Positions 1 through 18,521 are shown, numbered from the stretch's first letter. The stretch is DNA of 64,000 bases from Sulfodiicoccus acidiphilus (GCF_003967175.1 NZ_AP018553.1:558001-622000), one strand, 5' to 3'. Numbers and translations are program-made. Notes: generated by a model from the sequence alone, not told the origin.

Positions 1-167
1 CAATTCAAATACTAATTTGCTAGAGACTATACCCAACGACAGTCACCGACTGAACGGTCTCCGTGAGGTCCTAGTCGAAGTGAAGTTTCGGGAAGTTCGT
101 CTTCGCTTCAATCTACGTACTAGATTCTCCAAAGTCCCTTGAATGGGAACTGGACTCTATGCCCGTG

Positions 168-475
168 GATCTTAACCCTCTACCGTCCACGCGAAGGGGC
201 GTCCTCGCCTCGAAGGTCTCCTGCTTCCGGGAGCGACCTCTATACTCCTTAACCATAGCGGAGGTTTAGACGGACAGTTGCGTGACTCCCCGTATGAAAT
301 AAGGAGATATGGAAGGTAGTTGTCCACAGACGTAAGTACCCACGGTCTCGACGGTATGACCGGCTTTCACGGCCGAGGTCCAAATTGCCGTAGTCTTTTA
401 TCTATGAAAGAAATTTCTGTCGGAGCCGTCCATCCCCACTACGGTCTTTCACCTCCTCAACCCCGTAGAGTCAAA
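168..475 (-). repeat. Decayed IS200/IS605-type element without tnpB (copy A)
   Basis: This stretch aligns along its length with the better preserved elements at 41949-42246 and 12431-12718, though with many changes. Shared landmarks in order are the right-end hairpin remnant (about 176-205), the block around 'ctgcttccgggagcgacct' (223-241), 'tagcggaggtt' (257-267), and the left-end block near 400-470 that ends in 'cctcaaccccgtagag'. Orientation is minus, with the left end at the high coordinate. No open frame of the transposase survives. It is the oldest-looking copy in the window. Confidence 0.5.
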
Positions 476-532
476 GTCGGTCAAAATCTAATGACTGCTA
501 CAGTTAATTATATATGTTACTAGGGCTAGTTC

Positions 533-778
533 GTGTCCGTGGAAGTAAAGGTAACTAGGAACTATCAGATAACGATACCTTACGAGGTTAGGCAAAAGTT
601 GAGTATAAAAATGGGGGACAAGCTTATCGTGAAAGTGGAAGGCGATAAGATAATAATACAGAAGAAGAGGGGCGATATATCTTCTCTTAACCTCACTTTG
701 GGGAGGAAGATAACTGACGAGGAGATCAATGATGTAATAAACGTGGCTGGTAGGGAAATTGCTAGAGGCGGTAGTTGA
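533..778 (+). CDS. vapB: VapB-type antitoxin (AbrB/SpoVT fold)
   Basis: 81-aa protein. Residues 3-45 form an AbrB/SpoVT swapped-hairpin DNA-binding domain, with the usual TRNYQITIP strand and a GDKLIVKVEGDKIII strand pair. The C-terminal ~35 residues are charged and would wrap the toxin. It overlaps the PIN-domain toxin gene by 20 nt, the classic antitoxin-first VapBC order, so translational coupling and autorepression by the complex are expected. The start is GTG at 533; a second in-frame GTG at 539 is equally possible. A short AT-rich stretch (503-520) may hold the promoter. The cognate role is inferred from gene order. Confidence 0.85.
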   Translation: MSVEVKVTRNYQITIPYEVRQKLSIKMGDKLIVKVEGDKIIIQKKRGDISSLNLTLGRKITDEEINDVINVAGREIARGGS

Positions 779-1139
779 TACTAATTTTGTAATAGCCGTT
801 ATGTTTAAAGATCACGAGTATCACGAGAGAGCGTTAATAGAATGGAGTAAACTCGAGAAGGCCTATTTACCGTTAATTTCCATTACAGAACTTGCCTATT
901 TTATTATTAATAATAAGCTAAATTTTGAGTTAATAGATGAAGTCATCAACGATCCCAAAATCGAGATAGTACCTGAGACTATAGATGACGTTTACTGTGC
1001 CTCAAGTAATAATGGGGAGATAAAGGGTTATGATGACTTTAACGACTTTTTGATCTTATCAGTTTCGGTCAAGTTAAATTTACCTTTGCTTACATTTGAC
1101 AAGAAGTTGAAAGCTAAAAGTGATAGAAGTCGAGTCTAG
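759..1139 (+). CDS. vapC: VapC-type toxin, PIN-domain ribonuclease
   Basis: 126-aa PIN-domain protein, predicted Mg2+-dependent endoribonuclease. The acidic active-site set is visible: D in VVDTN near residue 7, E in SITELA near 43, an acidic YDDFND cluster near 90-95, and D in LTFDKKL near 115. Length is typical of VapC. The start is TTG at 759, inside the 3' end of the antitoxin gene and preceded by a GGGA purine stretch. Targets of such toxins (tRNA, rRNA or mRNA) cannot be read from sequence. The C-terminus ends soon after the last motif, so a small truncation is possible. Confidence 0.85.
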   Translation: MLEAVVDTNFVIAVMFKDHEYHERALIEWSKLEKAYLPLISITELAYFIINNKLNFELIDEVINDPKIEIVPETIDDVYCASSNNGEIKGYDDFNDFLILSVSVKLNLPLLTFDKKLKAKSDRSRV

Positions 1140-1639
1140 CCCTTGTAGAAGAGCCTCCTCTAGTCATGTATAATCATACGAAGTAGGAAGTAGCTGTTAT
1201 GGTACCTTTAAGTAGCTTAAACATTTTCATCAGCTCACCTGCGCCTATTAAACAGTTTCAATGAACTTCTGGAGCTCTCTCACGTTCCTCAGGTTCAGGT
1301 AGAGGATAAGGTCCCCTGACCGTGTTGACGGCCACGTAGAAGAGGATCAGGTAGTCCTATGACCTGTTCCTCAGACCTAGAGATGAGTCCTGGTATCCTA
1401 GGACCTCAGGTTTGCCGTGAGACTTATCTCCTGAAATGAACTTCGGCCTTTCGCGACCTCTTCCTAGTCGAGGCTGATGTCTGTGGAGTATAGGTACTTA
1501 CGTTGAGGTTTTCCATCGCTTAACCCCCATTTTCGTAAACCGGCTAGCCTCGGCTAGTTCGAGGCTTTACTGAGGTGTATTTGAGACCTCGCCGTTGCTC
1601 CCATCTGCAGTTATTTTCCACCTCCTGTCTAATAACTTC
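1140..1639. other. Gene-poor stretch with a possible coding relic
   Basis: No convincing gene. On the minus strand around 1255-1320 a short frame reads DLILYLNLRNVRELQKFIETV-like residues before a stop. It has no start codon and no recognisable family, and may be a relic. The right end holds a 'ttatttt' TATA-like element (about 1611-1617) placed correctly for leaderless transcription of the next gene at 1640. Confidence 0.3.
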
Positions 1640-3829
1640 ATGCGTTACGTCGGTAGACCTATCAGGAGGAAGGAGGATCCTAAGCTCATAACCGGAAGAG
1701 GAAGGTATATCGACGATATTGAATTCCCGGGGACTCTCCACCTCGTCGTAGTTAGGAGCACGGTAGCCCACGCGCTTTTGAAGAGCGTCGACTACTCAGA
1801 CGCTCTTAAAGTGCAAGGGGTTGTAGGAGTGCTCACTGGGGTCAAATTCAAGGTGGACAACAGGCCCGAAGACTTTCCCATGGCTTCAAAGGAGATACTT
1901 TACGTCGGACAGCCAGTCGCTGCAGTCGTTGCTACAGACAGGTACGCTGCGGTGGACGCCGCCGAGAAAGTACAGTTCGATTACGATGAACTCCCTGCCG
2001 TCGTAGATCCCGAGGAGGCCGCAACTGGGAGCAAAGAGGTTGTAGGCGGAAAGGGGCTGGCATACGAGAGGGAATACGCGTCCGGCGACGCGTTAAGGGC
2101 GATAGAGTCTTCTCCCCAGAAGGGGGAACTGAAAGTGAAAATAGGGAGAGTCTACGCTTCTCCCATGGAACCGAGGGGCCTTCTCTCAGTTTACGAGAGG
2201 GGTTCGCTCACTGTTTACGCTTCCACACAATCTCCTCACTTCATGAGGAGGTTCCTCGTCGAGACCTTCGGAGGCAGAGTGGAAGACGTTAGAGTGGTAC
2301 AGGCCGACGTAGGTGGAGCTTTCGGAGCTAAACTGTTTCCTTATCCTGAGGACTACATAACGGTTGAGGCCAGCCTCAGGTTCAGGAGGCCAGTGAAGTG
2401 GGTGGCCACCAGGAGGGAGGACTTCGTCAGCACTTACCTCTCTAGGGATCAGATACACAAGCTACGGTTCGGCTTCGACGAGAGGGGCGTTCTCAGGGGG
2501 CTCACGGACGACGCCCTGATAAACTTGGGTGCGGCCTCCCACGGCTATTACCTAGGTGATATAGCTGCTACAATGCTCCCAGGGCCGTATAAGGTCAGGG
2601 ACGTCAAAGTGAGAGTGCTAGGTGTCTACACAAATACCACTCCCTTGGACCAGTACAGAGGTGCTGGAAGGCCAGAGGCGACATTCGCTATAGAGAGAGT
2701 CATGGACTACATAGCGGAAGAGCTCAAGGAAGATCCTGTGGAGGTGAGGAAAAGGAATTTAGTTGTTGAGACCCCATATACTAACCCGTTCGGACTCACC
2801 TATGACTCAGGCAACTACTCTCACCTTCTCGAGAGAGCGGGTTTGATCTACAGGGAAATGGAGGAAAGGGCGAGGAAGTTGAAGCTCGAGGGTAGGAGGG
2901 TGGGGGCTGGGCTTTGTTTCTATTTAGAGCAGAACAACTTCGGACCTTGGGAGAGCGCATCCGTCAGGGTTAGGGGAGACGGAAAGGTGCAAGTTATCGT
3001 GGGCGCGGCCCCGCACGGACAGGGGGCTGGAACTGGAATAGCCCAGGTTGTGGCCGACGAGTTGGGCTTGGACTTGGACCGGGTAGAGGTTAGTTGGGGG
3101 GACACCTCCCTGATCGGGGAGGCCTTCGGTACGTACGGGAGTAGGAGCCTGACCTTGGCTGGAAACGCGGCCCTCCTAGCGGCTAGGAAGTTAAAGGACA
3201 AGGTGAGGGGACTTGCGGCTGAGCTGATGGGAACAGACGTTCAGGAACTGGTTTACAGGGACGGAGGCGTGGAGAATCCAAAGGACGGGAGGAGAATGTC
3301 CTTGGCAGAGGTAGCTAGGGCCACGGTGGCCTCTATGGGAGGAACATGGAACTTCAAGAGGGATCCTTCTCTGGAAGTGACAGAGTACTTCGGGCTCGAC
3401 AACTACACTTTCCCCTACGGCGCCCACATTGCCCTAGTGGAGGTCGAGGAGGACGGCTCTGTATCCGTCCTTGACTACAGGGCTATCGACGATGTGGGAC
3501 TAGTGGTGAATCCGCTGTTGGCGGAGGGCCAAGTGGTGGGGGGTGTAATGCAGGGCTTCGGCGAGGTGTTCACTGAGGAGATCAGGTACGATGGCAACGG
3601 GAACCCCATCATGACAGACTTCGGGTCCTACAGAATACCTCGAGCACACCAGGCCTTCAGGGTGAGGTGGGAGTACTTCGAAGAGGGGAAATCCAACGCA
3701 CCACTCCCAAGCAAAGGTATAGGGGAGGGGGCGTCCATTGGTACTCTTGACGCGCTGGTGAGTGCGATAGAGAGGGCTGTGGGGAGGAGAGTGTGGGCAT
3801 TACCTGTTGACCCATCGCTCTTAATGTGA
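1640..3829 (+). CDS. Molybdenum hydroxylase large subunit (aldehyde/CO dehydrogenase family)
   Basis: 729-aa xanthine-dehydrogenase-family large subunit binding molybdopterin cytosine dinucleotide. N-terminal signature VGRPIRRKEDPKLITGRGRY; Moco motif GGAFGAK near residue 230; active-site loop QYRGAGRPE near 340; catalytic Glu in the C-terminal GKGIGEGAS. The loop is RGAGR rather than the CSFR of true aerobic CO dehydrogenase, so an aldehyde (for example glyceraldehyde) or related hydroxylase is more likely. ATG at 1640 is preferred over the upstream 1595 because the family N-terminus begins there and a TATA-like box lies about 26 nt upstream. No medium (FAD) or small (2Fe-2S) subunit gene lies beside it, so partners must be encoded elsewhere. 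Confidence 0.85.
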   Translation: MRYVGRPIRRKEDPKLITGRGRYIDDIEFPGTLHLVVVRSTVAHALLKSVDYSDALKVQGVVGVLTGVKFKVDNRPEDFPMASKEILYVGQPVAAVVATDRYAAVDAAEKVQFDYDELPAVVDPEEAATGSKEVVGGKGLAYEREYASGDALRAIESSPQKGELKVKIGRVYASPMEPRGLLSVYERGSLTVYASTQSPHFMRRFLVETFGGRVEDVRVVQADVGGAFGAKLFPYPEDYITVEASLRFRRPVKWVATRREDFVSTYLSRDQIHKLRFGFDERGVLRGLTDDALINLGAASHGYYLGDIAATMLPGPYKVRDVKVRVLGVYTNTTPLDQYRGAGRPEATFAIERVMDYIAEELKEDPVEVRKRNLVVETPYTNPFGLTYDSGNYSHLLERAGLIYREMEERARKLKLEGRRVGAGLCFYLEQNNFGPWESASVRVRGDGKVQVIVGAAPHGQGAGTGIAQVVADELGLDLDRVEVSWGDTSLIGEAFGTYGSRSLTLAGNAALLAARKLKDKVRGLAAELMGTDVQELVYRDGGVENPKDGRRMSLAEVARATVASMGGTWNFKRDPSLEVTEYFGLDNYTFPYGAHIALVEVEEDGSVSVLDYRAIDDVGLVVNPLLAEGQVVGGVMQGFGEVFTEEIRYDGNGNPIMTDFGSYRIPRAHQAFRVRWEYFEEGKSNAPLPSKGIGEGASIGTLDALVSAIERAVGRRVWALPVDPSLLM

Positions 3830-3862
3830 GCGCTTAAAGGATCAATCCCCACAACTCCCCCC

Positions 3863-5104
3863 ATGAACAGAGAGCTTGCCAAGCTCGCCGTCCTTAACCT
3901 GATCGCCTATACTTTCCTCGTCTATAACAACTCTACTCTGACTTTCTTCAATTCTCCTTACCTCTCTGCCGTGTTTTTCGGTAGTTCGTCCTACCTATCC
4001 TTGGCGGCCACCATAGGCTCGGCGGCGTTGGGGCTGGCGATGAGGCCGATCGGTGGTTGGACGTTGGGACCCTTAGGGGACAGGCTGGGTAGGAGAGCCC
4101 TCACTAGGATAGGCTCAGTAGGCTCAGTTGTACCCCTCCTAGTAGTGGCGATGTTACCTGGGTACAGGACGCTAGGACTCACCGCCTCGGTGACATTCCT
4201 CTCACTTTTAGGAGTCCAAGGGTTCTTCACTGGAGGGCTAACAGGAGGGATAAACGTCATCGGACTGGAGTCTCTAGAGGAACGCGACAGGGGTTGGTTC
4301 AGTGGTTCTGGCATGGCCGTTAGTGGGACGTCTTTCCTCGTCGCCACTGCCGTGTACTCCGTCTTGGTCGTTGCCTTGGGACAGAATCAGTATGCCCTAT
4401 GGGGGTGGCGAATCATGTTTCTTACAAGCTCCTTAATGTTACTTTTCGGTTTCGTGTTACCCGAGTCGAAGAAGTTCGGGGGAAGCAAGGCGAGGAGAAC
4501 TGTGTCGTATGTCGTGAGGACTTATAGGAGGAGGTTTGTCCTAGCTGCCTCGCTAACTGCTCTTTGGGGGTCTCTAGCCTTCACAGCTGAGGGGCTCCTC
4601 CCCACTTTTCTCTTGAAGGTAGACCATCTATCCTCCATTCAAGTGAGTGAAGCGTTGCTAGTTTACAGCATATTCACAGCGGCCTCAGGTTTCCTCGGTG
4701 GGGCCCTGAGTGAAGTTAAGGGAAGGAAGTTCGTCTCCGGGGTAGGGGCCCTGTTGGCCCTGGCTGGGGTCCCTCTCTATCTAGCCCTAGCAGGTGCACG
4801 TTCCCCGGACGAGGTGGTTGCTATAGTGGCTCCCCTGTCCTTCGTCCTAGTCTTCGGAGGAGGAGCGGTCATGGTGTTGGTGAACGAGAGCTTCCCAACC
4901 GAGGTGAGATCCACGGGAGTATCTATAAGTTGGAACTTGGGTTTCATGACTGCTGGAATCACGTCGCTGTTGCTAAGTTACATTGCTTCAATAGTGGGAA
5001 ACCTAGCCCTAGTTGAGGCGGTGGGAACAGGAGGATTAGCGTTGACTACAATGTTGGTGACCTCATACTATGAGGAGACTCGTGGAGCTATGGATAGGAC
5101 CTGA
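3863..5104 (+). CDS. MFS transporter (metabolite:H+ symporter-like)
   Basis: 413-aa protein with about 12 hydrophobic segments. The MFS loop-2/3 motif is present as GPLGDRLGRRALTR (about 68-82), and a second GALSEVKGRKFV copy starts the second half (about 270), as expected for two six-helix halves. The GxxGDRxGRR form and length fit sugar/organic-acid:H+ symporters. It lies 33 nt after the molybdenum hydroxylase gene in the same direction, so it may import a substrate or export a product of that enzyme; that link is inference. Substrate unknown. Confidence 0.8.
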   Translation: MNRELAKLAVLNLIAYTFLVYNNSTLTFFNSPYLSAVFFGSSSYLSLAATIGSAALGLAMRPIGGWTLGPLGDRLGRRALTRIGSVGSVVPLLVVAMLPGYRTLGLTASVTFLSLLGVQGFFTGGLTGGINVIGLESLEERDRGWFSGSGMAVSGTSFLVATAVYSVLVVALGQNQYALWGWRIMFLTSSLMLLFGFVLPESKKFGGSKARRTVSYVVRTYRRRFVLAASLTALWGSLAFTAEGLLPTFLLKVDHLSSIQVSEALLVYSIFTAASGFLGGALSEVKGRKFVSGVGALLALAGVPLYLALAGARSPDEVVAIVAPLSFVLVFGGGAVMVLVNESFPTEVRSTGVSISWNLGFMTAGITSLLLSYIASIVGNLALVEAVGTGGLALTTMLVTSYYEETRGAMDRT

Positions 5105-5665
5105 ACTCGGTTAACCTCCATCCAAAGTGAACATCGATCTCGAGAGTGAATTCTCCCTTCTGAAAGACGATATCCTCACTCGACGATAATCTCAGTAGCA
5201 GGGAAGGAGTTAGGGCTCATAGGGTTTGACCCCAGTTCCTTCTCCATAAACACTATCCATCCTCTCTTTTACGTCACCTACTCACGGTACCAGTAACCTT
5301 ATCCAAGGGGAACTTCCATGAAGCACGTCGACTGATGGGTTCCTTTGCTTCTCACACGCCCTGGCCAAAAGTAAAGAGTGAGGCCCCCTAAAAGGCGTCG
5401 GGGTCGGAGCTCGACTCCAGGCAATCTGGAGACCCTACGTGCTAGTTAGAGCTTTGCCAAATGCGCTCTCCACGACTAGGGACGGAGCCATCCACTCGAT
5501 GTTTGCCAAGAGGAGGCGCACTTCTGTTCACTTATCTTTATAAAGCTGTTCACCTTCAAGGGTATCTTTTGCTCTCAACTTCACTAAAGATAAAACTGAA
5601 CTGCCGAACTAAAAATAGAAGCTCCTTAACTGAAAAATATTTAAATTAATTCAATACTTATCCCT
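5105..5665. other. Gene-poor stretch
   Basis: No supported gene. On the minus strand (about 5105-5200) two frames together read like the end of a protein (EDIVFQKGEFTLEIDVHFGW), interrupted by a frameshift, so a decayed gene is possible. The 3' end next to the pilin gene is AT-rich (5620-5660), in keeping with a T-rich archaeal terminator for the minus-strand pilin. Confidence 0.25.
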
Positions 5666-6178
5666 TTATCCGTACGTCTCGGTAAAGGATATGTGGAATA
5701 CAGCAGACTGTCCTGGCATCGTTCCATATGTCTCTAAGGTCAGGTATACTGGGACTTCACCCTCACTTGGACTCAAGGTGAATGTGAAGGTATGAGGAAT
5801 AGCCGTGCCATTGACTAAGAGTTGGATAGAAGTCGGTCCGCTGACTTCAGTCACAGTCATGGTTACGGTAACCGTCTGGTTTAAGTTATCGTCTACGAAG
5901 AAGGCAGGAGATATAGTCATCATTGCGTTAGTTTGTACTTTGTTTAGGTTTATTGTCAGATCACCACTAGCATTTAGATAGACGTAAGCAGATGCACTTG
6001 GTCCACTGCCGTACCCAAGGTAATGGTCGTTAGGTACTAAAGATAGTGGACCCGCCGGGTCCGCCGTTATCGTCACGCTCGCTAACCTCGTGTCCTGGTA
6101 CGTGAAGAAGGGTGTGGTGGAGAAGACGAGCCCCAAAAGGAGGGCGCCCACCACTATCGCGTATATTGCTGCTCTCAT
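5666..6178 (-). CDS. TasA/AbpA-like (DUF1102-type) pilin subunit, copy 1
   Basis: 170-aa predicted exported filament subunit. Residues 1-25 are a Sec-type signal segment (MRAAIYAIVVGALLLGLVFS). The mature part starts with SVTITAD and shows the pattern of archaeal TasA/AbpA proteins: a YVYLNASGDLTINL strand, then AFFVDDNLNQTVTV, ending FTETYG. Such subunits polymerise by donor-strand exchange into bundling pili or biofilm fibres in Pyrobaculum and Bacillus. ATG at 6178 is chosen over GTG at 6193 because the TATA box at 6208-6215 predicts a transcript start near 6186, and copy 3 lacks the GTG. Its first ~150 nt and promoter match copy 2 exactly over 240 bp; the C-terminal two thirds diverge. 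Confidence 0.75.
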   Translation of the reverse strand: MRAAIYAIVVGALLLGLVFSTTPFFTYQDTRLASVTITADPAGPLSLVPNDHYLGYGSGPSASAYVYLNASGDLTINLNKVQTNAMMTISPAFFVDDNLNQTVTVTMTVTEVSGPTSIQLLVNGTAIPHTFTFTLSPSEGEVPVYLTLETYGTMPGQSAVFHISFTETYG

Positions 6179-6268
6179 GTTCTCTAGCGGCACTTACGCC
6201 CCCACACATTTAAATAATTCTCATTATCCTGTAGATAATAGAGATAATTCGCTGACAAGTTATAGAAC
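6029..6268 (-). repeat. 240-bp inverted repeat, left arm (pilin promoter and N-terminus)
   Basis: Read on the minus strand, 6268 to 6029 is identical base for base to 8926-9165 on the plus strand. It contains about 90 bp of upstream DNA with the promoter and the first ~150 nt of pilin copy 1. Identity stops abruptly on both sides: before 'gttctataac' and after 'tagtacctaac'. The arms face outward around a 2,657-bp spacer. Confidence 0.9.
6208..6215 (-). promoter_or_regulatory. TATA box of pilin copy 1
   Basis: Palindromic atttaaat, flanked upstream by a purine-rich gagaatt stretch. It sits about 30 nt before ATG 6178, predicting a leader of only a few bases. The same element is duplicated at 8979-8986. 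Confidence 0.55.
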
Positions 6269-7051
6269 GGGTTCATTGGGAGCAGAGTGATTAAGTCTAT
6301 TACCAATATAGATTAGACGGAGAAGCGATAGTTGTTAGTTATTAGGAAACTTCACTACATTGCCCTTTGGGATTACCCCCTGGCTGAGATGATGTACTCC
6401 GTGTAGGGTCGAGTAGAAGGACTTTACAAAATTGTGGGTGGAGAGAAGCCTCCAGCGGGGAGGGAAACCCTCCTCCTTTAAATATTGTTTTTCTTAAATT
6501 TTCTCAGTGATACTGACGACCTTCTTCTCCCAGCACAATCGAGAGTTCAATGCAACTGTGGGAGGGGAAAGTGGCATCTTCCTTACTCTTTTGAGGATCT
6601 AGGGCTCAACTTCCAAAGTCCCTTCTGTTGAGGGTCTGGCGTCCCCACAGCCCACCGGAGTAGAGATGTGATCCCGAACCGAAGGTGGGAACTACGAACC
6701 CTAAGAAGGGAGCCCTGGACGGCGAGGAGGAAGTCGGTAAGAATCACGCTATGAAAGGTAGGCTAGGGAGGAGTTATAGGTTTTCCTTATTACAAATCTC
6801 CAGAGCGATTTCCAGAGATCACCCTATTCTCCCTAGCTTTAGAGTCATATGCGTATCGAAAACTCTTCTAGAAAATTTAGTCTCTTTACCGAAAATTTAG
6901 AAATAATGGAATATTAATACTTCAATACTCTCGTACAAACGAACAGCTTAACGTTGTGGAGACCTTCACCTGACAGTCAAAATTCTGTATTCTAGCAATC
7001 TGGCACGATTCGTACAGATCTCCTTATTTAATCTGCCTTCTAAGTAGCGTC
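6269..7051. other. Intergenic stretch, no supported gene
   Basis: No convincing coding region on either strand. A perfect 6-bp hairpin ggaggg-aaa-ccctcc lies at 6459-6473, followed by a T-rich stretch; it could be a terminator or the relic of a similar hairpin in the IS605-like elements. The 3' end (6900-7040) is AT-rich and should contain the promoter of the GH12 gene. Confidence 0.35.
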
Positions 7052-8029
7052 GTGAATAAGTTCTTCTTAGTAGGTGTCGTATTGGCCGTAATCATCTCAT
7101 CTGTGGTAGGTTACGAGACCTTGGCGTTGCAACATCCAATGCCCTTGTCAGAACACTTCCCTTCACCTATCGATTCCTATGTCCTTTTTCCAACTGGAAA
7201 TGACCACTTTAGCGTGATAGGGAGCTACCTCAGCGACAGTGAGTATGCGATGTCTGAAATATATGGTAACTTTTCCACTCTAATGGTTTCCCCGTTCATG
7301 TGGAACGTCAAGTCGTCGTTGGGTAACGTCAACATGACTTACTATCATTTCTTACGTGTAACTGCCAACCTCTCCATGGTAAAGAAGATAACTCCCTCTA
7401 TATCTGTCCTAGGTTACCCTGGGCTCATGTATGGTTCAGAACCTTGGTTCCCTTTCGCCACCTCCACTCAACAGGTTCCAAAACTCGAGCTTCCTCGGCT
7501 CGTAGGTCAACTCCCCGACTTCTACTCCGTTCTAAACTACAGTCTATTTAATAAGACCGGGGAAATAGTGGACTTCTCTTACGACATATGGCTCACTCCT
7601 GAACCTAACGTGACTTACCTCGGGGCTGGGGACTTAGAGATCATGTTTTGGATGTGGTACACACAGAACCTATCTCACGTAAGATATTACGCATATGAGG
7701 GTACTCTAGATATCCCCACGTTTCTCAATGGAACACTCGAAAATTACCCCTGGAGCGTCTACGTTCTGAACTACAGCGCCGACGGATGGACATTGATGGT
7801 TTTTACTTCATCGAGACAACTTCAAGGATCGGTGGGAATCCCTATAGGATGGGTTCTGAAAGAGTCCACGCAGTTCTTATACAACCAAGGATGGAGGGCC
7901 AGTCTCAGTGCATACTACCTAGATGCTATTCAGGTCGGTATGGAGTTCAATAATGCTCCCAACGGTAGTGTTGACGTTGGTTACAACCTCTACCAATGGT
8001 ATTTAAACTTCAATTCGACTGAACTGTAG
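7052..8029 (+). CDS. Secreted GH12 family endoglucanase-like glycosidase
   Basis: 325-aa predicted extracellular beta-1,4-glucanase. Residues 1-25 form a signal peptide/anchor. The GH12 jelly-roll signatures are present: DIWLTPEPN near 178-186, the nucleophile segment DLEIMFW with Glu196, and the acid/base segment VGMEF with Glu298. Many NxS/T sites are consistent with secretion. Sulfolobus carries acid-stable GH12 cellulases of this size. It lies alone between the arms of the 240-bp pilin inverted repeat, with a GTG start at 7052. Whether it degrades plant or other glucans, or remodels the cell's own biofilm polysaccharide, cannot be read from sequence. Confidence 0.75.
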   Translation: MNKFFLVGVVLAVIISSVVGYETLALQHPMPLSEHFPSPIDSYVLFPTGNDHFSVIGSYLSDSEYAMSEIYGNFSTLMVSPFMWNVKSSLGNVNMTYYHFLRVTANLSMVKKITPSISVLGYPGLMYGSEPWFPFATSTQQVPKLELPRLVGQLPDFYSVLNYSLFNKTGEIVDFSYDIWLTPEPNVTYLGAGDLEIMFWMWYTQNLSHVRYYAYEGTLDIPTFLNGTLENYPWSVYVLNYSADGWTLMVFTSSRQLQGSVGIPIGWVLKESTQFLYNQGWRASLSAYYLDAIQVGMEFNNAPNGSVDVGYNLYQWYLNFNSTEL

Positions 8030-8586
8030 TAGTCCTTCCCGACGGAGCAGAGCCCTTGGTTTTAGAGTGGAGCGTTCCATACCGTGTAAGGGGTTTACCA
8101 TCTAAGTGGTTCTTGACATCGGAGCGGTTTATCGCCTAGATAGAGAGTTCAGGAATTTGGGGTTTAGACTTCGAATTCTCACGAATTCCTATCCGATCTT
8201 TAGGGTCCTTGGACTTCCCCGAAGTCGTGGATTCAGTTCTTCCTCCACCCATCGGCGGGCAGCCCACACCTCCTCTGGTACGACTAATCTCACACTCCAA
8301 AGCATACAAACTTCTCAACTCAGCTGAAACCGTAACGAAACCTTCGACAGGAAGAAGTTGTATAAGGACCTCCTGTCTGAACGCCCCATTCTAAGGAGTC
8401 TTCTAGATTTAATGACTAAGAGGGTTGAAATTGAAAAACTCACCCATTTAATCCTTATTGTCGCAAAGAAATGGATTAGAAACATCTACCCTGCTGTCAT
8501 AACTCACTATATGGCGCTTTCAATGGGTTGTTACAACGTTGGTCCAAGGGACAATACTAATATCCTACAGTAGATCAGTCTAGTTT
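8030..8586. other. Intergenic stretch, no supported gene
   Basis: Short open frames exist on both strands but none has plausible composition, start context or family motif. Nothing else recognised. Confidence 0.3.
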
Positions 8587-8880
8587 ATGATAAACGTAGG
8601 CTTCAACTACTTGGTATCTGAGGGAAAAGAGGAACAGTTTCTCCTTAAGTTTAGGGAAGTGTTGCAGTTACTTAAAACCTCCAACTCAGGAATGCTGGAC
8701 GCGAAGCTCTACAGGTCTGTAGATAATCCACGCGAATTTCTCATTTTCACGGAGTGGGAGAGTCTGGATGCCTTCCGAAAGTTCACGTCGAGTAGAGAGT
8801 ATAAGGAAACAGTCGAATATGGAAAGAGTGTTATAGAGGGAAGGCCTAGACACATAGTGCTTCAGAGAGTGGAAGATTGA
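8587..8880 (+). CDS. ABM-domain protein (antibiotic biosynthesis monooxygenase-like)
   Basis: 97-aa single-domain ferredoxin-like protein of the ABM superfamily (dimeric alpha+beta barrel). It shows the typical N-terminal beta strand, a first helix, the central FLIFTEWESLDAFRKF segment (about 50-66) and a C-terminal strand ending IVLQRVE. Members include quinol monooxygenases and haem-degrading proteins; no haem ligand can be assigned. ATG at 8587. It stands alone inside the 2.66-kb segment flanked by the pilin inverted repeats, convergent with nothing. Function unknown. Confidence 0.65.
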   Translation: MINVGFNYLVSEGKEEQFLLKFREVLQLLKTSNSGMLDAKLYRSVDNPREFLIFTEWESLDAFRKFTSSREYKETVEYGKSVIEGRPRHIVLQRVED

Positions 8881-8925
8881 CTCACAAAAGGAAGACTTTA
8901 CCCTTTAGCGTAATTTTGGACATGT

Positions 8926-9165
8926 GTTCTATAACTTGTCAGCGAATTATCTCTATTATCTACAGGATAATGAGAATTATTTAAATGTGTGGGGGCGTAA
9001 GTGCCGCTAGAGAACATGAGAGCAGCAATATACGCGATAGTGGTGGGCGCCCTCCTTTTGGGGCTCGTCTTCTCCACCACACCCTTCTTCACGTACCAGG
9101 ACACGAGGTTAGCGAGCGTGACGATAACGGCGGACCCGGCGGGTCCACTATCTTTAGTACCTAAC
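8926..9165 (+). repeat. 240-bp inverted repeat, right arm (pilin promoter and N-terminus)
   Basis: Identical by eye to the minus strand of 6029-6268. It holds the promoter, the untranslated leader and the signal peptide/N-terminal codons of pilin copy 2. Codons 1-49 of copy 3 (15234-15380) match 9016-9162 with a single G-to-T change, so part of this arm exists a third time as a direct repeat 6.2 kb downstream. Confidence 0.9.
8979..8986 (+). promoter_or_regulatory. TATA box of pilin copy 2
   Basis: atttaaat about 30 nt before ATG 9016. It implies a transcription start near 9008, which rules against translation from GTG 9001. Confidence 0.55.
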
Positions 9166-9531
9166 AACGATAATCTAGGGTACAGTGCTCAAAACGACGC
9201 CTATGTGACACTTAATAATAGCGGAGACCTCGCCATAAACCTAAACGACGTACAGACTAATGCGATGTTGAAACTCGATCCAGCCTTCTATGTTGACGAT
9301 AACCTAAACCAGACCGTGACCGTTACCATAACTGTAAGTGGCCCGTATAACGCTAATGGTATGCCAGTATCTAGCACTGCGAAACTGTTGGTTAACGGTT
9401 CCACTACCTTGACTTTCACTCTGAGTCCAAGCGAGCACGAGGTCCCAGTGTATCTGACCTTGACTACCTACGGTACCTCTCCAGGAACCTTCTTGGACTT
9501 CCACATCACTTTCACGGAGACTTACAGCTGA
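9016..9531 (+). CDS. TasA/AbpA-like (DUF1102-type) pilin subunit, copy 2
   Basis: 171-aa filament subunit paralogous to copies 1 and 3. Same signal segment, then SVTITADPAGPLSLVP, the YVTLNNSGDLAINL strand, FYVDDNLNQTVTV, and the C-terminal FTETYS. It is the copy nearest the signal peptidase gene (206 nt downstream, same strand) and therefore the likely main substrate gene. The region encoding FYVDDNLNQ is identical to copy 3 for 31 nt while flanking codons differ, a mosaic pattern suggesting gene conversion. A T-rich stretch at 9568-9590 could end the transcript. Confidence 0.75.
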   Translation: MRAAIYAIVVGALLLGLVFSTTPFFTYQDTRLASVTITADPAGPLSLVPNNDNLGYSAQNDAYVTLNNSGDLAINLNDVQTNAMLKLDPAFYVDDNLNQTVTVTITVSGPYNANGMPVSSTAKLLVNGSTTLTFTLSPSEHEVPVYLTLTTYGTSPGTFLDFHITFTETYS

Positions 9532-9737
9532 AGACAATGGAGACCTACTATCCGTTAAGGCAAATTTTTATATTATTTTAACTAATTTTGATATCTCCCT
9601 TATTAACATAAGATAAGATAACCAAAGGCACGAAATCGTGCGTTCGTTGCTATAGATTCTTTTGCAAAAGATCCTAGACCATATTTCTCCCTCCTCTATC
9701 TATTTTTATATTATGTGTCGGTAAGCTTCGTTTCAAG

Positions 9738-10781
9738 TTGATCCGTCAAACAGTTTACTGTGTAATGTTGGCATTTGGAGTCTCTTTGCTCGTTTCAGGA
9801 ATAGGGAGCGTACTATTCCACTTACCTTACGGTTGGCAAATCGACGCAACTAACTCAATGGAGCCACTGATTTACCCCGGAGACGTAGTTCTGGTACTGC
9901 CTCAGATAGGGAGAGCTTCGATAGGAGAGATCCTGGTCTACTACCAACCTCAAGAGGGCATCTACTACGCTCACGAGGTGATAGGGTACAAAGACGGAGG
10001 TTACATAACTAAGGGGATAAACAACCCGTATCCCGATCCGTGGATCGTAAAGGAGTCGTGGGTCAGAGGTTTCATTCCAACCGTATTTGGGTACCCAATT
10101 AAGATACCCGAGGTCGGTTACACAGTTAAGTTAATCGAGACGACGCTGGGAGAGAAGGGACTGATACTACTCGTAGCAGGCGCCGCTGTATTCTCGGAAG
10201 TTAGGTCTAGGTTATTGGGAGGAGAGGTAAAGATCAGGAGGCCACGCCAGTTATCTAAGAGGCAGTTGTTGGGGGGCTTCTTCCTGGTTGCGTTCGCGGT
10301 GAGTATGGTGGCCCTCTCTCACGGGGTGATTCGGGTCGAAGGTGAATGGAACGTGGTGCACTTCCAAAGTCTAAGAGGGTACACTAACGTCGGACTATCC
10401 TTCTCTCTGGGGACTTTGAGGACGAACTCTACTTACTACTTCGGCGGAAACGTGAGTTCAAAGGTGCCTGCGCTATTCGTTTTCCTGAGTTCTAACCCAG
10501 ATGTACGATTCCTCAACGATCCGTTAGTAGACATGGGGGGTAAGGCGACAGAGAACTTCACTGTCACCACTGGGGGAGTGGGGGAGCAGGGCTCTGTGGT
10601 GACAGAGATGGCCGTTCCCTATGTATTGCCTGCTGGAGCAGCGTTATACGTAGCTAAGGTCAATCCTATTTTCCTCTTAGCATTAGTCTCGTCAGAGGTT
10701 TCCTTCTTCATTACCTTGGTGGTCTGGGGAGTCATGGAATTAACGTCTAGAAGAAATATAGAACCAGCAGTGAGAAGTTAG
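9738..10781 (+). CDS. SipW-like signal peptidase I with C-terminal beta domain
   Basis: 347-aa membrane protease. TM helix at about 5-28, then the catalytic Ser in ATNSMEP (about residue 41) and the archaeal/SipW-type His in AHEVIG (about 79) in place of the bacterial Lys. After the S26 domain come two TM segments (about 135-155 and 175-195), an exported beta-rich region of about 110 residues with NxS/T sites, and a last TM near 315-335. Dedicated S26B peptidases of this kind process TasA/AbpA-type subunits; the neighbouring pilins are the likely substrates (inference). Start TTG 9738; ATG 9762 is an alternative. Confidence 0.8.
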   Translation: MIRQTVYCVMLAFGVSLLVSGIGSVLFHLPYGWQIDATNSMEPLIYPGDVVLVLPQIGRASIGEILVYYQPQEGIYYAHEVIGYKDGGYITKGINNPYPDPWIVKESWVRGFIPTVFGYPIKIPEVGYTVKLIETTLGEKGLILLVAGAAVFSEVRSRLLGGEVKIRRPRQLSKRQLLGGFFLVAFAVSMVALSHGVIRVEGEWNVVHFQSLRGYTNVGLSFSLGTLRTNSTYYFGGNVSSKVPALFVFLSSNPDVRFLNDPLVDMGGKATENFTVTTGGVGEQGSVVTEMAVPYVLPAGAALYVAKVNPIFLLALVSSEVSFFITLVVWGVMELTSRRNIEPAVRS

Positions 10782-10861
10782 AGAAGTTCGGCCTAAACGA
10801 CCAAGATTTTATATAATTTTTTTCCATAAGACTATATAATTTAGGCACATAATCATAGCAC

Positions 10862-12349
10862 ATGAAACGGGAAAGGAGAGACGCCTCGAAGAACGTGAAC
10901 AGGAGAAATTTGAAATTAGGTGTGAGGAGAGAAGTTAGGGTTGGAGCGACGATCTTGCTGGTACTCGGTCTTCTTTTGATAGGCGGACTAGTAATTTATC
11001 CGTCGCTGAGTTACACCCCGAGGACTTATCAGGTGGAAGATGGATATAGGACCATAGCGTACGCTCAACTCAGCAGCCAAGCGATAGTTTACCCCAACCA
11101 TATATATAACACCACAAGACTCGTGAGTGGTTACACTGCGAACGAGACACCTGCTTTCAGTCTCGGTCTCGAGACGTGGGCAACTCTGAAACCGAATTTA
11201 CTTTACACCTCACTCACCCTCTATAACTCGTCCTTGTATTTCACCAAGATCGTTGACTTACTCTACGTGAGCTTAGTTTTGGGAAACCGAACTGTGAACG
11301 GTAATTACACAGTATCCTTAGTCGCGCCAGGTTACTACCAGAAGAGCCTCTACACCGTCAGAGACAGCCCGGTAGTGGTCCCGTTAAACCTCAGTTACAT
11401 TCTAAACGTTTCAGAGAAAATAAACTCACAACTTGGAATATCCCCTCCCCTACAGGTGCGGATCGCATCTAACGTTACAGCACTTAACTACACTCTGGAA
11501 CCGGTTGTAACGGTGAACATAGGGGACAGCGTCACCACAGTCTACCTCGCCAATTCCACCGCCTTCCGGCAAATCAAGATACCCAACTACGAGTACATAA
11601 CTAGCAACGACTACAATCAGTACTTCGAGGCACTCCTCAAGGTTTTGTTATTGAACGTCAGCGAGTCGCTCGGCCAGGCCAAGATGGTAAACTACAGTGT
11701 GTTCATAGTGACCCCCCAGTTCGTTAAGCTCGTAGAGAGGGGTGAGAACCTGGGCCAGTGGACTGCGATACCTCTCAATATGACTGAAATAAACAACTTC
11801 TCAGAGACCCTCAACAAGGAAGTCGGAACTTACTACTTCCCTCCAGACTTAAGGATAGATGTTAGTTTCGACGGACCTAGATTAGATCCTGTGATATACG
11901 TAAATTACACCAACGGTCTGGTCCAAGCTACAATATCTAACAACTCCATATCTGAACCGATCTACATCACTCAGACGACCCCGAGGCCCAACCCTGTACC
12001 AAGTATAGGGGCCGAATCTGCCCTCGGCATTGCCCTAGGCTTCGTAGCCCTCGGAACGTTCACTAAAGTGGAACCTCTGGACATTCGGGAGGTAAAAAGA
12101 TTTAGCTCGAAGTACAGGAAATTGATCGTAGACGCCAAGAGCCCACCTGACGTCAAATCTGCCGTTGAGCTAGGAAGCCCAGAGGATCTGGCGAAGTACG
12201 CTATGCTAACTGGGAGACCAATGGTCATGCTGCGAAGGAACGGAGGGGTAGAACTGTGGTTCAAAGATCAGGACGTGGCTTACGTCTACAAGTTCAGGAA
12301 TGGTCGGGAAGGTGATGGTCAAGCAATACCCGCTTCAAATACGTCTTAA
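10862..12349 (+). CDS. DUF5305-type membrane protein of the pilus locus
   Basis: 495-aa protein with an N-terminal TM helix (about 29-48), a ~330-residue exported beta-rich domain with more than a dozen NxS/T sequons, a second TM (about 378-397) and an ~85-residue cytoplasmic tail. Architecture and position right after the signal peptidase match archaeal DUF5305 proteins, which recur beside S26B peptidases and TasA/AbpA-like subunits. A role as assembly platform or anchor of the filament is plausible but untested. An AT-rich stretch at 10808-10845, upstream of ATG 10862, may give it its own promoter. Confidence 0.7.
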   Translation: MKRERRDASKNVNRRNLKLGVRREVRVGATILLVLGLLLIGGLVIYPSLSYTPRTYQVEDGYRTIAYAQLSSQAIVYPNHIYNTTRLVSGYTANETPAFSLGLETWATLKPNLLYTSLTLYNSSLYFTKIVDLLYVSLVLGNRTVNGNYTVSLVAPGYYQKSLYTVRDSPVVVPLNLSYILNVSEKINSQLGISPPLQVRIASNVTALNYTLEPVVTVNIGDSVTTVYLANSTAFRQIKIPNYEYITSNDYNQYFEALLKVLLLNVSESLGQAKMVNYSVFIVTPQFVKLVERGENLGQWTAIPLNMTEINNFSETLNKEVGTYYFPPDLRIDVSFDGPRLDPVIYVNYTNGLVQATISNNSISEPIYITQTTPRPNPVPSIGAESALGIALGFVALGTFTKVEPLDIREVKRFSSKYRKLIVDAKSPPDVKSAVELGSPEDLAKYAMLTGRPMVMLRRNGGVELWFKDQDVAYVYKFRNGREGDGQAIPASNTS

Positions 12350-12430
12350 AACCTTCACATTTTAAGTTCGAGAAAACTGGTTTGATAAGGCCCACAGTCC
12401 CACTTTCTAGGACTTACGGCCTCTGTAGGA

Positions 12431-12718
12431 GTGTAAACTACTACGCCCTCGCGGACGGGGCGTCCTAGCGGTGAGTCCTGCTTCTCGGAGCGATATCGAT
12501 CTCCTTCCGTAGCGGAGGTTCCGGGGAACCGTCCTGTGAACAGTACGGAAGGGGGGTCACGGAGGGTTTCCTCTCCACGGGCGTGAGTTCCCCCAGCCCC
12601 GAGGGTGCCCAGCCCTCATGACCAAGTTTTTGGTAACTACAAAAACGTTTCTATGAAGGGGCTAGCCGTCCCCATCCTTATGGACGGGGACCCCCCTTAA
12701 TCTCCAATTTTTGTTAAA
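12431..12718 (-). mobile_element. tnpB-less IS200/IS605-type element (copy B)
   Basis: About 288 bp, no open frame. The right end is at the low coordinate with an imperfect hairpin around ctcgcggacggggc. The core 12550-12608 (ggaaggggggtcacgg...agggtgc) differs from the element at 41949 at only about two of 59 positions. The left end is at about 12645-12718 with the gtccccat...ggggac hairpin. In IS1341-type elements this 3' region overlaps the omega-RNA guide scaffold, so a tnpB-less copy retaining it is notable. Mobilisation would need TnpA from elsewhere. Confidence 0.7.
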
Positions 12719-13289
12719 CGTCCTTGAAAGGTCTTTTCAGCTACGTTGCCACTCTAACTCTATATGAGGAACTGAAGGAGGACATAAACATAGTCGTTTC
12801 ACATGGGATTTCTAAGTGTTCAACTGTATGTACCCCAGAGATTCTCGAGCCCCCGACGGGTCGTCTCCAGACAAGCCGACTGAGACCACCCTAGAATCCT
12901 CGGTGAGGAAGGTGAATCTTAAGAGGTAAAGGAGGTTCAGATCTAGAGGCCCCACTACGTTCGTTTAGCTTCCCCGAACTATTTAGAAAATCCGAATAGA
13001 CCGCTCCTCTATAAGGTATTTTGATCCATCTAGTGAAGTAGAAATCTATCATATTACTAAAGATTCCGAGCATAGTTCTAAAGATTCTGAGACTGTAAAT
13101 AAACCTTACTAAACCTCACAATAGGCTATGAGGGAATGAAGCCAAATCCTCGACTTGTCCAGACACGAAATATTGGTCTCGAAGAACGTAAAAATACTCA
13201 AACTTTTAGCTAACACCTAATGTATTATTAGGGGTTATCTGCATAAAGCTTCTTTCTATATTTATATGCTACCTCAATGAGTAGTAATC
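12719..13289. other. Intergenic stretch with promoter of the wHTH gene
   Basis: No supported gene. A short frame at about 12759-12895 (YEELKEDINIVVSHG) may be a relic of something lost. The TATA-like tatatttatatg at 13257-13268 lies about 26 nt before ATG 13290 and fits leaderless transcription of the next gene. Confidence 0.35.
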
Positions 13290-13583
13290 ATGGGAAGAAG
13301 AAATCGAGACGAATTCGAAATCATGGGAGATATAATCTTCTGTTGCCAAGAAGGTAGCAAGAAGACGAGGATAATGTATTCTGCTAACTTAAGTTACCAA
13401 CTGGTGAGGAAGTACTTGTCCAAGATGTTGGAGAGAGGTTACTTGACAAAGAAGGAGGACATCTACTACGTTACGGAAAGAGGGAAAATTTTAATGGCTA
13501 AGGTAAAGAGATATAGGGTACTGAAGGAGGAGTACCTCAATTTATATGAGGAACTTAAGAGTAACCATTCAAGACTTCACTAG
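13290..13583 (+). CDS. Winged-helix DNA-binding protein (HTH_45/Sso10a-like)
   Basis: 97-aa protein. Residues 8-70 form a winged helix of the archaeal HTH_45 type: an N-terminal RRNRDEFEIMGDI helix, the hallmark GSKKTRIMYSANLSY recognition segment, then YYVTERGKILM in the wing. The C-terminal ~25 residues are a predicted coiled-coil dimerisation helix, as in Sso10a. Leaderless ATG start. It is isolated in a gene-poor zone between the DUF5305 gene and pilin copy 3, so control of the filament genes is an attractive but untested guess. Confidence 0.75.
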   Translation: MGRRNRDEFEIMGDIIFCCQEGSKKTRIMYSANLSYQLVRKYLSKMLERGYLTKKEDIYYVTERGKILMAKVKRYRVLKEEYLNLYEELKSNHSRLH

Positions 13584-14331
13584 ATCCTGTGGATGTGCTC
13601 TATGAGAACCCGCTTGTACTATTCTACGTGGCTTAGTGCTTTGGGGGACCATATCTGTTGTCTAGTCTTACAACTATTCAAGTTAAGAAGTCTTAAGGTG
13701 CAGATTAATAACTGGCAAATCAAAGCCAAGAACCTAAACAGACACAATGTCCATCGGGAGAAGGTCGGTATTAGGGATGAGGAAGAAGCTTCCCACTTCT
13801 AACAGTCACCTCTCCTCCAAAATGCAAAGGATCCTTCCGCGATCTGGGAGTCTCCGCCACCCACCTAGACCACATCGACGTCCCACAGAACTACGAGTTC
13901 GCCTTGAAGCCGTTCTCTTAGCGTATGTCGGTGAAGAACCTAGAGTTGAAGGGATAGGAATACTTGACGTAAAGTGATATGAGGTTATTAGATGCAGCTG
14001 CTCTAACTACTACACCTTCCACAACTTGGAGACAGGAGGTCCTCCTGGGTTGTCGCTAACCTTCCACTAGCTAATGAACCTACCCCACCTCCACGGATGG
14101 AGCTTTCTGCTTAACGACCCACCTTACCAAGGGTAGAGGAATCCGCAGGAGAGGCCGTCCCGGCCTAGATCCTCCAAGTCCGATCTGATGGTGACCGCTA
14201 AGAGCCTTTGGATGGTGTGGAGGCGTTCTCCACGAGCTCCCGCTTCGTGGCGTCTCGGCGATGCAGGGTGGTCGATACCCCCGCTGACAAGTACCTCAGT
14301 AAATTTCTTGAGGTTGGACTTAAAGATAAGG

Positions 14332-14391
14332 GGTAACTCCGTCCCCACCCTCACGAATGGTCTTCCGCCCCCTCAACTTCCCTTAAGAGTA
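14332..14391 (-). repeat. Solitary left end of IS200/IS605-type element (copy C)
   Basis: The segment ending in tcttccgccccctcaac and ttaag matches the left-end block of the elements at 39992-40304 and 41949-42246, including the conserved tccccaccctcacg. The matching right end cannot be located with confidence, so only the end is called. Confidence 0.55.
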
Positions 14392-15194
14392 AATTCCTCA
14401 CCCATCCTCAAAGGTGTTCTGAACGTCTCAAGGAAGGCTAAGGGAGGCGAGAGGACAACGTGTTAGAGAAACTGCTGTGGTTCGTCGTAGACCTCAACCA
14501 AATAGCTTCCTACAGGAGTGTAATTCCAGAGTCCTCAACCAACTCTCCTCTTCAAGGTGAGAAGGCCGGAATACATTTAGACCGAGCTGAAAGGATTGGT
14601 TTTGGCTGGATTTCACTAACCGAAAAGAATTTCAAACTGATATATATTTAAAAATATGGATATACTTACTCTAACGAAAGTTCCCTTCATCCACCTCCTG
14701 CTCAGGTTCAATGGATAGGAGAAAGCGGGAGTCTGATTTATAAGGTAAGGGGCCTTTATAACACGTGAAAAGCCTGTCCTCTTACGGTTGAAGCAGTGGT
14801 TTAAATTATGGAGGATCATTTTCTGTAAAGTTTCGGTAAAGTTAAGGAGTTATAATCCATAATTGGATGTAGTGAGGAACTTTCAAATCTCTCTTTCCGA
14901 GGGAACTCCACTGATGAAGTTCCTTCATCGATTCTTGAAACATCCAACTACAGATATTCAGCTTCTGACCTACAGGGACCAAACGAAGGAACAAGGCTAT
15001 AATTAAGAGCCTGACCTGTGACCTATGAACCTTCCGGATCCCTTAACGTGGGGAGGGCGTCAACGAAATTTCAAATTACTATTATGGAATACACGTCGTA
15101 TAGAAAATCTATGGAGCCCTTCATAAATGCCTTTTTAGAAGTCTTTCAGAAATGGCCATATCATTATTCTATGTTATTTCACTGATAACGAGAA

Positions 15195-15203
15195 TAACTT
15201 ATA
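15195..15203 (+). promoter_or_regulatory. TATA box of pilin copy 3
   Basis: acttataac centred about 34 nt upstream of ATG 15234. Its sequence and surroundings differ from the duplicated promoter of copies 1 and 2, so copy 3 may be expressed under different conditions. Confidence 0.5.
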
Positions 15204-15233
15204 ACCACGAGGGTTATTCTAGTTCTAGGGAAA

Positions 15234-15788
15234 ATGAGAGCAGCAATATACGCGATAGTGGTGGGCGCCCTCCTTTTGGGGCTCGTCTTCTCCACCACAC
15301 CCTTCTTCACGTACCAGGACACGAGGTTAGCGAGCGTGACGATAACGGCGGACCCGTCGGGTCCACTATCTTTAGTACCTGTACATAATATGTTAGGATA
15401 CGTCGGCGACCCTCCTCCACCACCACCTCCTCCTCCACCACCTCCTCCACCACCTCCCCCATCAGTTCCAGGACAACCATATGTATACTTAAACAGTAGT
15501 GGAGATCTAACAATAAACCTAAGAAACGTTCAAAGCAATGCGATGTTGGAGCTTACTCCAGCCTTCTATGTTGACGATAACCTAAACCAGAGTGTCACTG
15601 TTACTGTTAACGTGGTGCAGGTAACCTCTACTCCAGCAAAACTCCTACTCAACGGAACTACTTCAATGACTTTCACTCTGAGTCCTAGCGAGGGTGAGGT
15701 TCCAATATATCTCACGTTATTAACATACGGCACTACACCTGGTCAAACGCCACAGTTCAGAATCACTTTCACTGAAGTATACTCTTAG
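15234..15788 (+). CDS. TasA/AbpA-like pilin subunit with polyproline insert, copy 3
   Basis: 184-aa paralogue of copies 1 and 2. The first 147 nt match copy 2 with one change (Ala to Ser in the ADPAGPL motif), while the 5' flank is unrelated and lacks the GTG codon, supporting the shared ATG as true start. After the shared N-terminus comes GD, 17 prolines, then SVPGQPYVYLNSSGDLTINL and the common FYVDDNLNQ segment, ending FTEVYS. The Pro-rich loop replaces 0-10 residues at the same position in the other copies and should form a rigid exposed spacer. It is about 3 kb from the DUF5305 gene, same strand. Confidence 0.75.
   Translation: MRAAIYAIVVGALLLGLVFSTTPFFTYQDTRLASVTITADPSGPLSLVPVHNMLGYVGDPPPPPPPPPPPPPPPPPSVPGQPYVYLNSSGDLTINLRNVQSNAMLELTPAFYVDDNLNQSVTVTVNVVQVTSTPAKLLLNGTTSMTFTLSPSEGEVPIYLTLLTYGTTPGQTPQFRITFTEVYS
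15411..15461 (+). repeat. Proline-codon microsatellite (17 codons)
   Basis: 17 consecutive CCN codons (mixed CCT/CCA, one CCC) with internal cctcctccacca periodicity. Such a tract can change length by slippage or unequal exchange in units of three without breaking the frame. Confidence 0.85.
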
Positions 15789-15872
15789 AAGTATACTATA
15801 AACTCTCGAAGTTGAAGTTATAATTTTTTAAAAATTTCGTTCTTCTATGACACTTTTTATTGTTAGTTCCCT

Positions 15873-17711: not shown

Positions 17712-17712
17712 C

Positions 17713-17868
17713 CTAGGAACCGCTCTCCTTCCTCGCCAGCTCCTCCACGTCGACCTGAGGATCCTTCTCTGCCTTGACTATCAACAGGACGAACCATATC
17801 GGGTACACCAGGGCCATAAGGAGGAACCCTATGCCCCATAGCATGTACTCTGACTCTAGGATAGGCAT
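17713..17868 (-). CDS. 51-aa single-span membrane protein
   Basis: Short frame starting ATG at 17868 (MPILESEYMLWGIGFLLMAL...) and ending TAG at 17713, one base before the GTG of the 612-aa gene. One TM helix (about 9-31) is followed by a charged C-terminus (KAEKDPQVDVEELARKE). Small single-helix subunits are usual in archaeal terminal oxidases. Spacing within the operon and the membrane/charged layout support a real gene rather than chance. Function unknown. Confidence 0.65.
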   Translation of the reverse strand: MPILESEYMLWGIGFLLMALVYPIWFVLLIVKAEKDPQVDVEELARKESGS

Positions 17869-17918
17869 TGCACCTTACACTCTCTAAAGAGGGTTAAAAA
17901 AGTTGGTTTTAACGAAGC

Positions 17919-18521
17919 TCAGAAGATCCCCATGTCCTTAAGTATCTTCACCATGTAGAAAGTAGACGGGACAAATGCCATGGCGAACCAGAGGTATGCA
18001 GTGTCAATGAATTGGGACACCGGGTAAACGGAATAAACGTTCTCTGAGTAATAGGCACCTAGCTCGAGGAAGATCTCCGCCATTGTCGCCATCATGCTGA
18101 AGATGGCGAATATGGTGGCGCTCCTCCACACGTTCGTCATTCCGTACCAGCCTATACCAGCTATTATTCCAGCCAAGGTGAAAGTGGCCAGCTGAACCAC
18201 CTTCCAATTGAGGTAGAGAACACTCAGCGCGAAGGGACCAGGTATGTACCAGTAAGTCAAAAGTGCCCCCGCTACTCCCCAACTCAGGAAGAGGCCTCTA
18301 GTGGAGAAGTTGAAGCTTAGGAACCACGCCGTGATCCTTCCCCCTTTCCTGAACAACAGCTCGGCCAGCCAGATACCCACTAGCCCTGCCCCCCACACTA
18401 ACACCATGTCGAACGAAGTCTTGGCGATCTCCGAAGTCCTGTCTAACGATACAGAAAGCGGGTTGACTGAGGCTGCTACCATTACAGCTCCCAAGATCAA
18501 ATAGGGGGTCTTTTCCCTCAA
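17919..18521 (-). CDS. Six-span membrane protein of the oxidase cluster
   Basis: 200-aa protein with about six TM helices and no recognised family. A longer frame extends upstream to 18650, but its first ~43 codons merely overlap the preceding gene out of frame and read like non-coding sequence. Translation therefore most likely starts at TTG 18521, which overlaps the previous stop in a TTGA arrangement (coupled translation). Possible quinone-interacting or assembly subunit; inferred only from context. Confidence 0.65.

Follow-up and report, generated by a model that had tools for sequence, protein, structure and literature searches.

Probable concerted evolution of the 5' ends of three putative filament-subunit genes in Sulfodiicoccus acidiphilus

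Results

In a 64-kb window of the genome of Sulfodiicoccus acidiphilus (the whole stretch of DNA that was analysed; the strain carrying it is termed HS-1), three paralogous genes encode putative surface-filament subunits: A (5666-6178, minus strand, 170 amino acids), B (9016-9531, plus strand, 171 amino acids) and C (15234-15788, plus strand, 184 amino acids with a run of 17 prolines). The 5' ends of the three genes are almost identical as DNA, and the remainders, referred to here as tails, have diverged widely. This pattern is concerted evolution by ectopic gene conversion, confined to the segment that runs from the signal peptide through the N-terminal extension to the second predicted strand. 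The fuller account, in which old paralogs of a donor-strand filament have had their 5' ends overwritten by recombination with the tails left free, is in our judgment probably correct.

A sequence-only reading of this DNA had described a perfect inverted repeat of 240 bp carrying the promoter and N-terminus of two outward-facing genes, and pairwise alignment of the arms confirmed both the coordinates and the description. The left arm (6029-6268, minus strand; promoter and codons 1-50 of A), taken as its complement, equals the right arm (8926-9165, plus strand; promoter and codons 1-50 of B) at 240/240 bases across a spacer of 2,657 bp. The exact match ends on both sides, the pair lengthens to 258 nt at 98% identity when extended, and the boundaries are sharp, lying at codon 49/50 and about 90 bp 5' of the ATG, such that each arm comprises a promoter region of about 90 bp plus the beginning of its gene. 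Among exact repeats in the window this one is the longest, followed by 123-bp matches to gene C and then by a 35-bp match between B and C. As the full extent of the repeated unit, however, the inverted pair did not hold, because the third paralog had been overlooked: codons 1-49 of C agree with those of A and B at 146/147 bases, and the identity begins at the ATG (at 6178 in A and 9016 in B) that is common to the three genes. The conserved unit is a 5' block common to A (6032-6178, minus strand), B (9016-9162, plus strand) and C (15234-15380, plus strand), and one nonsynonymous change in C is the sole difference within it. All three copies sit within 10 kb, A/B and A/C being inverted and B/C direct, and genome-wide protein and DNA searches found no further copy of the block.

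TATA-like boxes (TTTAAA) lie within both arms, that of B at 8980-8985 on the plus strand, 36 bases 5' of the ATG, and that of A mirroring it at 6209-6214 on the minus strand. The promoter of C is only loosely similar: it carries the motif GATAACGAGAAT at -50 (15184-15195, plus strand), where A and B have GATAATGAGAAT, and thus retains GATAAYGAGAAT at that position with the remainder diverged. A repeat collapsed or copied during assembly could be suspected from a long-read-only consensus over a repetitive block, but PacBio RS II sequencing yielded 1.54 Gb of subreads, against a genome size of 2.35 Mb (PMC6647314), the C copy has its own substitution and its own promoter, and the flanks are unique; we therefore give such an artefact almost no credence.

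Over codons 1-49, none of the three gene pairs shows a synonymous difference at about 40 synonymous sites, whereas from codon 50 to the end the proportion of differing synonymous sites (pS) is 0.74 for A/B, 0.83 for A/C and 0.73 for B/C, and that of nonsynonymous sites (pN) is 0.20-0.24. The synonymous sites of the tails are saturated, so the tails must be old and the block recently equalised. Divergence of the gene remainders, claimed earlier, was thereby upheld, and so was the proposal that gene conversion keeps the shared cassette identical, now widened from two genes to three. The saturated divergence of the tails contradicts a recent simple duplication.

A sister species (genome G021) allows the block to be compared between genomes. 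Its subunit gene, readable from codon 32 to the end, lies on contig JAFMDM010000128.1; the record is labelled 'Euryarchaeota archaeon', and the genome is assigned to the window's own genus. Between G021 and HS-1, codons 32-49 differ with a pS of 0.61, a value from only about 16 synonymous sites, and a pN of 0.19-0.22, nearly as much as the tails (pS 0.80-0.88, pN 0.23-0.28). Over the same codons the paralogs within HS-1, with no synonymous difference, are closer to one another than to G021. Because the block diverges between species, it is not frozen by constraint but homogenised within the genome; the same divergence explains why the HS-1 block, sought in the G021 genome at the DNA level, gave no match above chance, as was to be expected. 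Purifying selection on the N-terminus alone, without any conversion, would find some backing in the functional importance expected of this segment in donor-strand filaments. It is contradicted, however, by the absence of synonymous change within the genome (about 40 sites in each of three pairs, against a pS above 0.7 elsewhere) together with free change of codons 32-49 between species (pS 0.61, pN about 0.2), and we regard it as hardly tenable.

The G021 subunit contig begins 55 nt before codon 50. Contigs of this assembly that have a common start share 51-55 nt, mostly 53-55 (65 contigs looked at), and one contig pair overlaps end to end by 55 nt, as expected if an assembly with k = 55 breaks at repeats. 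This position of the break suggests, indirectly, that G021 also has several subunit copies sharing sequence up to codon 49.

In the tail tree, A, B, C and the G021 gene form an unresolved star, and the duplications cannot be dated from it; given the star, the paralogs probably date back about as far as the split between HS-1 and G021. The same observation bears on a converse history, in which the 5' block is an old common segment and divergent tails were imported from other strains, anchored in the block. Sulfolobales exchange DNA between cells, such imports would leave the same pattern of identical anchor and divergent tail, and the tails are indeed about as far apart from each other as from G021. 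Yet at least two independent imports with breakpoints near the same codon would be needed, the A/B identity covers the promoter too, and the G021 block differs from that of HS-1, which makes homogenisation within the genome the simpler account. Tail replacement is thus unlikely, although it deserves some weight.

The tails themselves hold one hint of exchange. B and C share an exact stretch of 35 bp (9279-9313 and 15557-15591, both plus strand), against a longest exact match of 8-13 bp in the other five tail pairs; in a silent-site permutation it is the only pair suggestive of mosaicism (p = 0.06), and it may be a short conversion tract. This patch, with the constant N-terminus and variable body, is what would favour antigenic variation, which the sequence-only reading had raised, and in particular the pilE/pilS type, in which silent cassettes act as conversion donors. 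That proposal found no support here: every copy found in the genome, three in all, is a full-length gene with its start codon; searches of the whole genome at the protein and DNA levels turned up no tail that was truncated or lacked a promoter; and the single patch is the only sign of mosaicism in the tails. We consider it very improbable.

Phase variation by inversion fared no better. A perfect 240-bp inverted repeat with arms 2.66 kb apart is ample for homologous recombination, which could flip the spacer and thereby change which filament is made, and the locus has been rearranged at some time. In G021 (contig 24) a major facilitator superfamily (MFS) gene is followed by the DUF5305, signal peptidase and subunit genes on the opposite strand, so that the module of peptidase, DUF5305 and subunit is flipped relative to the MFS gene when compared with window positions 3863-12349. 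Comparison with this relative thus bore out a difference in orientation, but not one that inversion between the A and B arms can explain, since in G021 the SipW-like peptidase and DUF5305 genes lie next to the MFS gene. Moreover, both arms contain the TATA box, start codon and N-terminus, and an inversion would swap only sequence more than 90 bp 5' of the ATG and recreate the same A and B genes. As each promoter travels with its arm and is not uncoupled from its gene, neither gene changes, and a switch of this kind appears improbable. The inverted orientation of A and B is incidental. Other pairings would have other consequences: recombination between A and C, inverted and identical from the ATG, would swap their promoters, and recombination between B and C, in direct orientation, would delete the peptidase and DUF5305 genes; neither event was observed.

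Structure models were made of B (mean predicted local distance difference test score, pLDDT, of 66 for the whole protein and 73 for the mature part). They place a hydrophobic helix first, followed by a disordered stretch at codons 21-30, strands at 33-38 and 45-49, a loop and the remaining beta sandwich. On this model the block would encode the signal peptide (residues 1-20), a disordered N-terminal extension (about 21-32) and the strands 33-38 and 45-49. The end of the homogenised block coincides with the end of the second predicted strand, and the next loop is highly variable, containing the 17 prolines in C; most of this poly-proline linker, borne by one of the candidate heads, is encoded by a CCN array at 15411-15461 on the plus strand. 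The array, situated in the first variable loop beyond the block, may be prone to length change. Another genome (G020) also has a subunit with a proline-rich stretch, but in a different loop.

In a Foldseek search with the mature B model, the closest match was the Pyrobaculum bundling pilus 7UEG (E 3.5e-4, template modelling (TM) score 0.49), and the next matches included FimA and the Sulfolobus thread 7PNB, all of them donor-strand filaments. In profile searches of the PDB the family had no match among archaeal filaments of solved structure, and a Pfam search of the subunit family returned no family above cut-off, TasA/camelysin included. Because of the predicted fold and of the SipW-like peptidase next to B, the data point to A, B and C being subunits of donor-strand filaments of the bundling-pilus, thread or TasA type. 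The term 'pilin', used earlier for A and B, remains apt in the loose sense of a filament subunit, but not in that of a type IV pilin, given the fold and the SipW-like neighbour. Type IV pilins were considered and rejected: the N-terminal hydrophobic stretch is followed by a beta-only mature domain, the fold matches donor-strand pilins, and the class III signal peptide of type IV pilins and the N-terminal helix that forms their filament core were not found.

The peptidase gene (9738-10781, plus strand) encodes a signal peptidase I of the SipW-like, archaeal type; in profile searches it lies just over the cut-off of TIGR02228 (52.6 bits against 51.85) and under that of the SipW model, and it likely processes the subunits. 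A DUF5305 membrane protein, above the Pfam cut-off, follows at 10862-12349 on the plus strand. Among 197 genomes of the order that were searched, nine have the subunit family, all of them in one taxonomic family and usually with a single gene; G025 is the only other genome with two copies, and their N-termini are not identical. In relatives, with neighbours judged by eye from the sequences, the subunit gene has a signal peptidase-like gene beside it, and near it lies one for a larger membrane-anchored protein, in the position of the DUF5305 gene.

Several further features lie in or around the locus. The spacer between A and B contains genes for a glycoside hydrolase family 12-like protein (7052-8029, plus strand) and an ABM-domain monooxygenase-like protein (8587-8880, plus strand). 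A gene for an Sso10a-family DNA-binding protein (13290-13583) sits between the DUF5305 gene and C, and frames resembling it occur near subunit clusters of other genera. A 21-bp unit is present in two tandem copies at 13050-13091, and overlapping AbrB-like and PIN-like frames at 533-1139 were judged by eye to form a probable VapBC toxin-antitoxin pair. At 12436-12608 there is a repeat of about 173 bp that recurs at 41949-42127; the genome has about 40 copies of it, most of them 80-95% identical. Frames with TnpB-like zinc-ribbon motifs (by eye) lie close to one copy, and the repeat is possibly a right end of the IS200/IS605 type or an omega-RNA. An Rfam scan of window positions 1-18000, which included the copy at 12436, found no matches, nor did a tRNA scan.

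Discussion

Our data suggest a model whereby the three genes are old paralogs that encode subunits of a donor-strand-complemented surface filament, and homologous recombination among the copies, of the RadA type and with no need of a site-specific recombinase, would repeatedly overwrite their 5' ends. From the leader through the N-terminal extension to the second strand, the copies would thereby stay identical as DNA, and the tails, having diverged past the reach of recombination, would vary freely. Identical stretches would be re-copied and conversion tracts would stop at the heterology of the tails, a process by which the block may maintain itself. If selection acts for a shared leader and donor strand, it could favour conversion and would account for the boundary. 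Short-patch gene conversion has been documented in Sulfolobus acidocaldarius (PMC4471258), and for domain-limited conversion of archaeal paralogs the mtrA genes provide a precedent (PMC4632066). Several points nevertheless weigh against the model: donor-strand assembly is read from a structure model of moderate confidence (pLDDT 66-73, TM score 0.49), profile searches detected no sequence similarity to any solved archaeal filament subunit, conversion is deduced from one genome and one fragmentary relative, and the contig break in G021 could reflect strain polymorphism or a gap in coverage.

Known systems resemble this one in part. The AbpA bundling pili of Pyrobaculum calidifontis (7UEG) and the bacterial TasA-SipW matrix fibres have in common with the subunits the predicted beta sandwich, the free N-terminal extension and the best fold match, as well as a SipW-like signal peptidase gene adjoining the subunit gene; the present subunits, however, show neither profile similarity to these nor a Pfam TasA/camelysin match, and their genes, three in number, have a 5' block that is homogenised. 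The thread of Sulfolobus acidocaldarius (Saci_0406, 7PNB) belongs to the same archaeal order, matches in fold and is a filament in which each subunit is completed by the N-terminal donor strand of its neighbour (PMC9715654), but it has no profile match to the present subunits. Furthermore, no chaperone or usher was reported for the thread cluster (PMC9715654), whereas the present cluster includes genes for a SipW-like peptidase and a DUF5305 protein.

Other systems share the pattern of divergence. Haloferax volcanii has six adhesion pilins, PilA1-PilA6, each able to form pili, in which the N-terminal H-domain is conserved almost throughout (PMC4371748). These too are paralogous subunits with a near-identical N-terminal segment and a different remainder, but they are type IV pilins, with the H-domain after a class III cleavage site, and the identity was described for the protein. 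In mtrA-1 and mtrA-2 of methanogens conversion is also restricted to one domain of archaeal paralogs, but these encode an enzyme subunit, in two copies, in Euryarchaeota (PMC4632066), and a genome-wide survey of prokaryotic concerted evolution lists archaeal cases in methanogens only (PMC6053082). The pilE/pilS system and fim-type switches recall the constant front with variable body and the inverted repeats, respectively; here, in contrast, there are no silent cassettes and conversion homogenises the constant part, and inversion does not uncouple promoter from gene.

The present case adds a variant to these: concerted evolution limited to one domain, in predicted donor-strand filament subunits of Sulfolobales. 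The boundary, in what is a clear domain-limited case, falls where the predicted N-terminal joint region ends. An interchangeable donor strand carrying different heads, and therefore mixed filaments, is plausible: the shared donor segment may let three heads enter one filament or use the same assembly machinery, and the heads would then diversify with the joint staying uniform. A stronger form of this idea, that of a common plug with a variable head, we put forward only tentatively; conversion might keep leader and donor strand uniform in all three subunits so that heads differing in surface chemistry, one of them with a poly-proline linker, mix in one donor-strand fibre, an arrangement that the genus as a whole would share, down to the boundary codon. 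Should the common segment be the donor strand, the locus, which offers three natural heads for a single joint, would make it directly testable whether archaeal donor-strand fibres can consist of several kinds of subunit.

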